From: Pseudanabaena sp. BC1403
GTDB taxonomy: Bacteria; Cyanobacteriota; Cyanobacteriia; Pseudanabaenales; Pseudanabaenaceae
Direction: 5' to 3'
NCBI RefSeq assembly: GCF_002914585.1
Contig: NZ_PDDM01000004.1
Location: 1 to 64,000 of the forward strand
Length of the DNA stretch: 64,000 nucleotides
The position numbers and the translations under genes are program-made. The notes below the pieces were generated by a model. It was not told the DNA's origin, made no database searches, and worked only from the letters and a program-made list of their open reading frames with translations. Positions 34,921-36,870 of this stretch are shown one piece after another (the stretch's first letter is position 1; the number at the start of each line of letters is the position of its first letter).

Positions 34921-35376
34921 ATGACTGATAGTACTGATAGTTTAATCGTCAAACCAAAAAAATCTGGACTTGCTCCATTGATTCTCACGTTGGTGGAATT
35001 GTTGCGTCAGTTAATGGAAGCTCAAGTGATTCGGCGGATGGATGCTGAAAAATTAACTGAGTCTGAAATCGAGAAAGCTGCTGATAGCTTGCAAGCTTTA
35101 GAACAACAGATTTTTAATCTTTGCGAAGTTCTCGATATTGATCCTGAAGATCTGAATCTTGATTTAGGTGAATTTGGTAAGCTTCTGCCTAAGCGTGGAG
35201 CCTATTATCCAGACAAATCATCAAGTGAGTCATCTATTTTGGAACTACTCGATCGCTTAATCAGTACAGGCATCGTTTTGGAAGGTGATGTCCAGATTGG
35301 TTTAGCGAATATTAATTTAATTGATCTCAAATTGAAGTTGCTACTGACTTCAGGCGATAAGTCTGCATCTCATTAA
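34921..35376 (+). CDS. gvpK: Gas vesicle protein GvpK
   Basis: The 151-residue protein matches GvpK along its length: GLAPLILTLVELLRQLMEAQ, VIRRMDAE, a coiled region with SLQALEQQIFNLCE, DLNLDLGEFGKLLP and the C-terminal ILELLDRLISTGIVLEGDV. GvpK is an accessory factor needed to assemble buoyant gas vesicles. The C-terminal segment visibly resembles the amphipathic core of GvpA/GvpJ shell proteins. No gvpA, gvpN, gvpF or other gvp gene is in the window, so it is detached from the usual cluster. Its reading frame is complete. Confidence 0.9.
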   Translation: MTDSTDSLIVKPKKSGLAPLILTLVELLRQLMEAQVIRRMDAEKLTESEIEKAADSLQALEQQIFNLCEVLDIDPEDLNLDLGEFGKLLPKRGAYYPDKSSSESSILELLDRLISTGIVLEGDVQIGLANINLIDLKLKLLLTSGDKSASH

Positions 35377-35385
35377 TTCATCAAG

Positions 35386-35480
35386 CCCAGCACTCAAGTG
35401 CTGGCTAAGAGCTAAAGTCGGTTGAAACCGACTAAAGAATATTTCCACAGTCCACTTCAGTGGACTTGAGCTTTTAGCCA
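35386..35480. repeat. Compound inverted-repeat element between gvpK and larC
   Basis: Three perfect hairpins follow each other: CCAGCACTCAAGTGCTGG, AGTCGGTTGAAACCGACT and AGTCCACTTCAGTGGACT. GGCTAAGAGCT and GAGCTTTTAGCC form imperfect outer arms. The right end covers the larC stop codon. It is probably a noncoding mobile-type repeat and a transcription stop for both convergent genes. Confidence 0.8.
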
Positions 35481-35980
35481 AGAACTTGAGTTATTGGTTT
35501 ATTTGTTTGTACAAATTTCTCTCCAGCTACCTTAACTATTTCTTGCACTTGTGTTAATGGAATATTTTGCGATCGCGCCAACTTTGCACAGTCCTCATAT
35601 TCTGGCTGAATTGTACAAAATCCATCGCGCCATGCAATCTTAACTCTTGCCTTGCCAAATTCTGTTTCTACTTCATGGATCTCACGATAGAGAACTTTGC
35701 GATCTTGTAAGCGATATCTAATGCCAAGAGTGCTAGTTTCGCGAAAAAGAATTTGTTCACAAATATTTTGGCGATCGCAGGGGCAAATAACCGTAATTAA
35801 TATCCCATTACGCGATTTTTTCATGCCGATCGCTTGGGTATATACGTCTAAAGCGCCATTTTGCAATAACTGCTCCATCGTATAGGCGATCGCCTGAGCC
35901 GTCATATCATCAACTTGCGTTTCTAAGACTGCGATCGTTTCTATACTTTGAAACCCTTGAAATAAGGAAACATCGGGCAT
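35474..35980 (-). CDS. larC2: LarC C-terminal part (nickel-pincer cofactor synthesis), separate frame
   Basis: The 168 residues match the C-terminal domain of LarC/DUF111: LETQVDDMTAQAIAYTMEQL, GALDVYTQAIGMKKSRNGI, RETSTLGIRYR and PEYEDCAKLA. LarC inserts nickel into the pyridinium-thiocarboxylate cofactor (CTP-dependent cyclometallase). The ATG at 35980 lies inside a palindrome, and the frame is open further upstream as far as the A9 run in larC1, in the -1 frame. A fused product by -1 frameshifting is therefore possible. Free translation from the ATG is the alternative; no clear ribosome-binding site precedes it. Confidence 0.85.
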   Translation of the reverse strand: MPDVSLFQGFQSIETIAVLETQVDDMTAQAIAYTMEQLLQNGALDVYTQAIGMKKSRNGILITVICPCDRQNICEQILFRETSTLGIRYRLQDRKVLYREIHEVETEFGKARVKIAWRDGFCTIQPEYEDCAKLARSQNIPLTQVQEIVKVAGEKFVQTNKPITQVLG

Positions 35981-36007
35981 TGCCCGATGTTTCTTTATTT
36001 CAAGAGT
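35968..36007 (-). promoter_or_regulatory. Candidate -1 frameshift site of larC: A9 run plus hairpin
   Basis: On the minus strand the larC1 frame reads AGC AAA AAA AAA CTC TTG AAA TAA. A slip of one base back on the A9 run opens the frame ACT CTT GAA ATA AAG AAA that runs into larC2. Immediately downstream a hairpin (inner stem GAAACATCGGGCA, extended by CTTGAAATAA) can fold. Slippery run, nearby stop and stem-loop are the parts of a programmed frameshift signal. Polymerase slippage on A9 would give the same result. Confidence 0.6.
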
Positions 36008-36870
36008 TTTTTTTTGCTTTTACCAACCCACAAACGCAAAGCGTTAGGAATTTCTAAATCCTGCGTACCTGCACCCAGACCTACTTTTTTGATTTTCATT
36101 AAGGGAACCTCACCAAACTTTTCACAGAGTGTGACAGCGATCGCAGCTCCTGTAGGTGTAACTAATTCTTTTCTAATCCCATTATCAAACGTAGTCACCT
36201 CATGCATTTCCCATAATTTCAATGTGGCAGGAGCTGGCACTGGCATCTTGCCATGATCACAATCAACATAGCCACCACCCGCAGGCAAAGCAGAGCAATA
36301 GATCTTATCAACTTCCAGCCAAGCGAAGCCTGCACAGGTACAGACAATATCCACGATCGCATCGATCGCACCAACTTCATGAAAATGTACTGCCTCTGGT
36401 GCAATGCCATGTACTGAACCCTCTGCGATCGCGAGTTCTTTAAATGTTGCTAAACTCCAAATTTCAACCTGTTTTGGCAATTTAGCATTACGAATGATCT
36501 TCTCAATATCAGGCAAGTGGCGATGAATTTGATGGGAATGATCCTTATGGGAATGTTTATGAGTATGTTCTTCATGGCTATGTTCCTCATGGCTATGAGA
36601 ATGAACATGATTAGCATGGGAATGATTCTGTTCAATCGCAACGGTAGGTGGCTCTTCGCCGTTATAGTTTAATAATTCAACATGCATTTTTGTCGCTTCG
36701 ATACCGCCACGATGAACGGATTCTGTCCATAACTTAACTTCATGATCGAGTCCTAATTTATGAACAATATCTTGTAAATATTCTAAAGGTACACCTGCAC
36801 TCACCAGCGCACCTAGACACATATCACCCGCGATTCCTGTCGGACAATCCAAATATGCAATGCTTCCCAT
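35995..36870 (-). CDS. larC1: LarC N-terminal part (DUF111) with a His-rich segment
   Basis: The 291 residues cover the N-terminal domain of LarC: YLDCPTGIAGDMCLGALVSAG, a His-rich stretch (about 82-118, some 18 His) likely to hold nickel, FHEVGAIDAIVDIV, GGGYVDCDHGKMPVPAPATL and ELVTPTGAAIA. The frame ends eight codons after the usual LRLWVG motif, in an A9 run, where the C-terminal part continues in the -1 frame. In many bacteria LarC is one polypeptide; in Lactiplantibacillus plantarum it is made by ribosomal frameshifting. No larB or larE is adjacent. Confidence 0.88.
   Translation of the reverse strand: MGSIAYLDCPTGIAGDMCLGALVSAGVPLEYLQDIVHKLGLDHEVKLWTESVHRGGIEATKMHVELLNYNGEEPPTVAIEQNHSHANHVHSHSHEEHSHEEHTHKHSHKDHSHQIHRHLPDIEKIIRNAKLPKQVEIWSLATFKELAIAEGSVHGIAPEAVHFHEVGAIDAIVDIVCTCAGFAWLEVDKIYCSALPAGGGYVDCDHGKMPVPAPATLKLWEMHEVTTFDNGIRKELVTPTGAAIAVTLCEKFGEVPLMKIKKVGLGAGTQDLEIPNALRLWVGKSKKKLLK

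Follow-up and report, generated by a model that had tools for sequence, protein, structure and literature searches.

A conserved, probably programmed -1 frame change at an adenine run in the nickel-insertion gene larC of Pseudanabaena and its relatives

Is the larC locus of Pseudanabaena sp. BC1403 a pair of genes, a broken gene, or a single gene that is read in two frames? The nickel-insertion gene larC acts in the synthesis of the nickel-pincer-nucleotide cofactor. In the stretch of 64,000 nucleotides analysed here (the window), its two halves, larC1 and larC2, lie in different reading frames that overlap at a run of nine adenines (A9), and a near-perfect palindrome overlaps the end of this run. 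An initial annotation of the locus proposed a candidate programmed -1 frameshift at A9 and regarded the palindrome either as a repeat recruited to stimulate the shift or as an insertion that had simply disrupted the gene. Comparison with other genomes indicates that larC very probably carries a conserved programmed -1 frame change, which would give a short LarC1 and a full-length LarC. A locus with the appearance of two genes, or of a damaged one, would then be a single recoded gene that a cyanobacterial family has retained. The frame change is judged to be programmed because of the arrangement itself, its conservation, the conservation of the A-run, the selection acting on both halves and the missing larC2 start codons in many genomes. 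That the fused LarC is produced, and its proportion, we infer.

The larC junction and its conservation

On the minus strand, larC1 ends with GTG GGT AAA AGC AAA AAA AAA CTC TTG AAA TAA. One base back on A9, the reading continues as ACT CTT GAA ATA AAG AAA CAT CGG GCA ATG CCC GAT, and the -1 reading of the junction is SKKK-TLEIKKHRAMPDVSLFQGFQSIETIAVLETQVDDM, with no stop before the LarC2 domain (Table 1). The end of larC1 from AGC onwards and the -1 frame running into larC2, both described in the initial annotation, are thus borne out by the sequence. Because the larC2 frame opens at 36019, just 5' of A9, and larC1 stops at 35995-35997, any -1 change is confined to 22 nt, nine of which are taken by A9 itself. 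By profile, both domains of LarC are present and contiguous across the junction: larC1 covers positions 1-238 of PF01969 (Ni_insertion) and larC2 covers positions 241-374, and the NCBIfam models TIGR00299 (nickel_LarC1) and NF052512 (nickel_LarC2) match larC1 and larC2, respectively, above their cut-offs. Relatives of LarC2 with solved structures include 6bwo and 12bi.

Table 1. Features of the larC junction in Pseudanabaena sp. BC1403, in window positions
Feature	Position	Strand	Description or basis
larC1 ORF	36870-35995	-	291 aa, zero frame; LarC N-terminal domain, His-rich stretch; C-terminus SKKKLLK, then stop
A9 slip site, AAA AAA AAA in codon phase	36015-36007	-	Sequence; genome pattern search
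Overlap of larC1 and larC2 frames, 22 nt	35998-36019	-	Stop positions in three frames
Zero-frame stop TAA, 9 nt past A9	35995-35997	-	Sequence
larC2 reading frame (-1), LarC C-terminal domain	35474-36019	-	ORF list; profile matches
Near-perfect palindrome (hairpin), 59 bp	35951-36009		Immediately past slip site, overlapping the last three As; read as coding sequence at -1; optional within Pseudanabaena
ATG in hairpin loop	35978-35980	-	Sole start codon 5' of the conserved LarC2 domain in BC1403; not conserved

The A-run by itself is not diagnostic, since runs of A9 or longer number 34 in the genome (both strands, 5.51 Mb) and many of them lie inside ORFs; the idea that A9 is unique in the BC1403 genome was rejected on this count. 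From 34 runs in 5.51 Mb, we calculate a chance of about 4e-5 that such a run starts at one of the 14 possible positions in the overlap.

The arrangement extends far beyond this strain. Among the 26 Pseudanabaena genomes searched, larC was found in 25 (one gave no match), and in all 25 larC2 lies at -1 behind A9 or A10. The same -1 split is present in eight of the nine split genomes from six sister genera (g2, g4, g5, g6, g7 and g8), so that it is found in 33 genomes of seven genera including Pseudanabaena (BC1403 and 32 others). The slip site is A9-A10 in 31 of these 33 genes, and in the other two, from genomes L153 and L154 of g8, it is A_AAA_AAG followed directly by a stop. One of the two g7 genomes has the -1 split; genome L152 of the same genus has A8 with larC2 at a +1 offset, which is either an assembly error or a genuine indel in the A-run.

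Elsewhere in the phylum, larC occupies a single frame in 107 other cyanobacteria (an even sample across the class) and in about 40 more from the genome collection, with few exceptions. These are contig-end fragments, one gene split at another place, and L156 from another cyanobacterial family, in which a -1 offset at the linker occurs with no A-run and perhaps reflects a sequencing error or a broken gene. The larC gene is also uninterrupted in g3 (L138-L140), a genus placed inside or beside the split clade, which shows that members of the cyanobacterial family can do without the split. A tree built from the flanking domains places every split in a single supported (starred) clade and requires two changes, which would be either one gain followed by one loss in g3 or two gains, the supports within the clade being modest.

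Both halves of the gene are under strong purifying selection, with a median dN/dS of 0.06 for larC1 and 0.10 for larC2. Two features by which a programmed -1 gene is recognized, namely a slip sequence conserved in the frame overlap across species and purifying selection on the downstream frame, are found together here. Homopolymer runs are error-prone and hypermutable, and an A9 indel, the palindrome or a sequencing error could in principle account for a broken larC. This explanation is next to impossible, given that the same state recurs in 33 genomes of seven genera with both halves under purifying selection, and that the palindrome preserves the larC2 frame and is missing from many equally split relatives. 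A pseudogene or a sequencing error was ruled out by the conservation and the dN/dS values. Simple disruption by the palindrome and an error in A9, both of which the initial annotation had allowed for, are thereby excluded; in the comparison with close relatives that it had called for, 25 of 25 Pseudanabaena genes are split at -1, palindrome or not. The proposed -1 frameshift at A9, on the other hand, gains strong support from its conservation over seven genera.

The A-run and the routes to LarC2

The linker that connects a conserved tryptophan-glycine motif to the LarC2 domain ranges from 26 to 149 nt in split genes and is variable in sequence, with the A-run as its constant element. The three Lys codons of the run in Pseudanabaena are AAA in 75 of 75 cases, which are not independent because the genomes share ancestry; in the rest of these genes AAG accounts for 32% of the Lys codons, and each of the nine conserved Lys columns of larC1 contains AAA as well as AAG. 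The first A of the run falls on codon position 1 in most genomes, on position 2 in g7 and on position 3 in g6. Since it is kept in differing codon phases, the run itself appears to be what is maintained. None of 50 intact cyanobacterial larC linkers contains an A-run longer than 8. Conversely, no genome with A9 or A10 is in the fused frame, though one inserted A would fuse larC permanently, and the A10 genomes retain the -1 offset and look like products of a substitution adjoining the run. The lack of any fused A-run genome argues that short LarC1 and full LarC are both maintained.

In the explanation that we favor, ribosomes remaining in frame would stop a few codons past the A-run (one to three in most genomes) and give LarC1, while for a fraction of products the frame would shift at A9 and reading would extend across the linker to the end of LarC2, yielding full-length LarC. 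The slip would be made either by tandem ribosomal slippage on A_AAA_AAA or by RNA polymerase adding one A on A9; a downstream hairpin would not be required, and where present it may raise ribosomal frameshifting.

Which machine slips is close to evenly balanced, with a slight preference for the ribosome. A heptamer of the form X_XXY_YYZ in zero-frame phase is available as A_AAA_AAA in every A9 and as A_AAA_AAG in L153 and L154. Slippage by RNA polymerase, which is a variant of the favored explanation and not an alternative to recoding, would generate transcripts with A9 of variable length, the fusion being encoded by those that have gained one A (or lost two), and would make the hairpin irrelevant. 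This variant is a serious contender, if somewhat short of even. Runs of at least nine As are found in 31 of the 33 genomes, whereas a ribosomal heptamer needs only seven; g6 and g7 keep A9 in other codon phases; selection against slippage usually becomes visible at nine As, in many bacteria (PMC1088944); and Thermus dnaX uses A9 for transcriptional slippage (PMC3711429). However, the run of g8 is just A6 with a G behind it, a site fit for the ribosome but not for the polymerase, and the hairpins cluster 3' of the site, where they are still untranscribed while the polymerase is on the A-run and could act on ribosomes. With poly-A cassettes of another gene, efficiency increased as the run was lengthened from 7 As to 9 and then to 11 (PMC3711429), which fits selection for length under either machine.

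LarC2 might also be reached with no frame slip, if larC2 were translated separately by re-initiation after the larC1 stop. The ATG that BC1403 has 13 codons before the conserved domain and the existence of LarC1 and LarC2 as separate genes in some Bacilli fit such a route. However, no ATG, GTG or TTG occurs between the opening of the frame and the conserved LarC2 domain in 10 of 25 Pseudanabaena genomes and 6 of 9 others (16 of 34), and in many genomes the larC2 frame opens within the A-run itself. The BC1403 ATG is in the loop of a stable hairpin with no Shine-Dalgarno-like sequence, and it is not conserved, as close relatives have TTG or nothing at its place. A route through a start codon is thus unavailable in about half of the genomes. 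Re-initiation would moreover leave the conserved A-run unexplained, and we regard it as quite improbable. Still less probable is phase variation, in which indels at the DNA level in A9 would toggle LarC between fused and split forms within populations. A9 is indeed prone to replication slippage and L152 has A8, but not one A9 or A10 genome is found in the fused frame when a single added A would suffice, and the genomes with A10 are still offset by -1. A programmed -1 frame change, whether made by ribosome or polymerase, is left as the explanation that best accounts for the locus.

The junction palindrome

The initial annotation described a 49-base palindrome close to the slippery run. A palindrome is present there, but it measures 59 bp (35951-36009) and overlaps the last three As. 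Its arms of 29 nt are 93% complementary, with the outer stem taking in these three As, and the RNA of the 101-nt junction folds at -41.3 kcal/mol (z -9.1). The palindrome had also been taken for one of the gene-flanking repeats of this genome, and it does share their architecture, with arms of 25-30 nt and an outer AAACCC...GGGTTT. The likeness ends at architecture, because the sequence is single copy, its strong matches in the genome being the site and its own reverse complement alone; a dispersed repeat similar to Rickettsia palindromic elements (RPE) was rejected, as no further copy exists in the genome.

In the window, 29 palindromes have arms of 16 nt or more (between 3373 and 63624), and all but two of them are located between genes or at gene ends. 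They are dense, long and mostly perfect; in many, the arms measure 25-30 nt, the loop 3 nt, and the outer AAACCC...GGGTTT encloses differing middles, and the intergenic ones may form a class of terminators or of mobile palindromes. The only other in-gene example is a perfect palindrome with 16-nt arms at 21122-21156, in the ORF at 20381-23245. On the + strand, the larC palindrome followed by T9 (35957-36015) reads as a strong intrinsic terminator. It faces the convergent gene at 34921-35376 and could stop antisense transcription into larC. This convergent gene, an ORF of 151 aa, has matches to GvpK as well as to the Gas_vesicle (GvpA-type) domain and is an apparent fusion.

Across the 34 split larC genes, a junction palindrome is clear in 12 by one search (13 with the degenerate one of L031), all from Pseudanabaena, and no clear one is present in 12 of 25 Pseudanabaena genomes or in any of the nine split genomes of other genera. 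Judged by eye, the palindromes represent about five sequence types, found in the BC1403 clade, L034/L035/L038, L046/L048, L049 and L041. No palindrome was found elsewhere in larC in the 34 split genes, and no strong fold (z below -4) in the 50 intact larC linkers. Within the BC1403 clade, four stem pairs have changed on both sides.

Has the palindrome been recruited as a stimulator, as the initial annotation suggested? According to such a reading, a hairpin 0-9 nt past the slip site would raise ribosomal frameshifting, and unrelated palindromes would have been recruited repeatedly. The recurrence of several types at the exact spot supports this part of the suggestion, as do their lack elsewhere in larC, the intact linkers with no strong fold, the intergenic position of nearly all other long palindromes in the window, and the stem pairs with two-sided changes. 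The absence of palindromes from the rest of Pseudanabaena and from all other split genera speaks against it. In addition, template-switch correction of quasi-palindromes also yields paired changes, a variable linker may merely tolerate inserts, and the outer stem begins at zero spacing from the slip site. Since the split is present with and without a palindrome, the arrangement can do without the hairpin; and since 12-13 species have a palindrome precisely here, with several unrelated sequences among them, and no palindrome in the rest of larC, the hairpin may plausibly stimulate the shift as an optional element. We therefore hold recruitment as a tentative reading, with the balance somewhat against it, and the hairpin may be a stimulator that has been recruited several times or a passenger that a permissive linker tolerates. 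A bolder and rather unlikely scenario is that the Pseudanabaena slip site repeatedly gains unrelated near-perfect palindromes of the intergenic type as exchangeable frameshift stimulators, and that a sister genus swapped its slip site between polymerase-type A9 and ribosome-type A_AAA_AAG with the -1 arrangement retained.

lar genes in other lineages and known recoding systems

The BC1403 genome encodes LarB, LarC and LarE, and LarA (PF09861) is absent in all 26 Pseudanabaena genomes searched. With LarA absent and the other three present, the user of the cofactor is presumably an enzyme not yet known.

Outside cyanobacteria, the two halves of LarC are arranged in several ways. In the Bacilli genome L203 (1180-1420), LarC1 ends with ATA GAA AAA AAA AAC TAG, which contains an A10 run, and LarC2 lies at -1. 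This case is apparently independent and falls at the same domain boundary, suggesting that recoding has arisen recurrently where the two LarC domains meet. In many genomes from the class to which L125 (Paenibacillus) belongs, including L204 and L205, LarC1 and LarC2 are on opposite strands, often adjacent and convergent, and LarC2 is frequently within a longer ORF of 300-400 aa. With LarC1 and LarC2 as separate genes in some Bacilli, the fused protein is not strictly needed everywhere. The more than 30 natural larC variants (A9, A10, A_AAA_AAG, with or without hairpin) offer material with which slippage by the ribosome can be told apart from slippage in transcription, and also bear on why cells retain the short LarC1.

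Among known systems, larC of Lactiplantibacillus plantarum, in work attributed to Desguin and colleagues in 2014, is reportedly encoded in two frames with full LarC made via frameshifting. Its larC1/larC2 pair resembles the present one in both the split and the frameshift, but belongs to a distant lineage. Precedents for both machines are found in dnaX, where Escherichia coli combines A_AAA_AAG with a hairpin and Thermus thermophilus uses transcriptional slippage on A9. Like larC, dnaX has an A-run, a -1 change near a stop codon and short and long products; unlike larC, in which the shifted product would be the longer one, dnaX yields the shorter product by shifting. By eye, no clear Shine-Dalgarno-like stimulator, a point of comparison with dnaX, is seen at the larC junction. 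Rickettsia palindromic elements and similar sequences provide another parallel, as a palindrome is tolerated in frame in a protein linker, whereas the larC palindrome is no member of a dispersed repeat family.

Another close relation is to DUF111, which we take to be the older Pfam name of the LarC family. DUF111 is one of four families with new programmed frameshifts, reaching up to 39% in E. coli, in Antonov et al. 2013 (PMC3711429). As described there, the DUF111 cluster is like larC here in its protein family, its adjacent ORFs that are fused elsewhere and its A-rich slip site; the main text, as far as available, does not include Pseudanabaena, a family-wide cyanobacterial case or hairpin turnover (PMC3711429). 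Our literature search found nothing relevant on frameshifting in Pseudanabaena among the papers listed. Frameshifting in the LarC/DUF111 family is thus already known, and what is new here is a deep and well-sampled cyanobacterial case.
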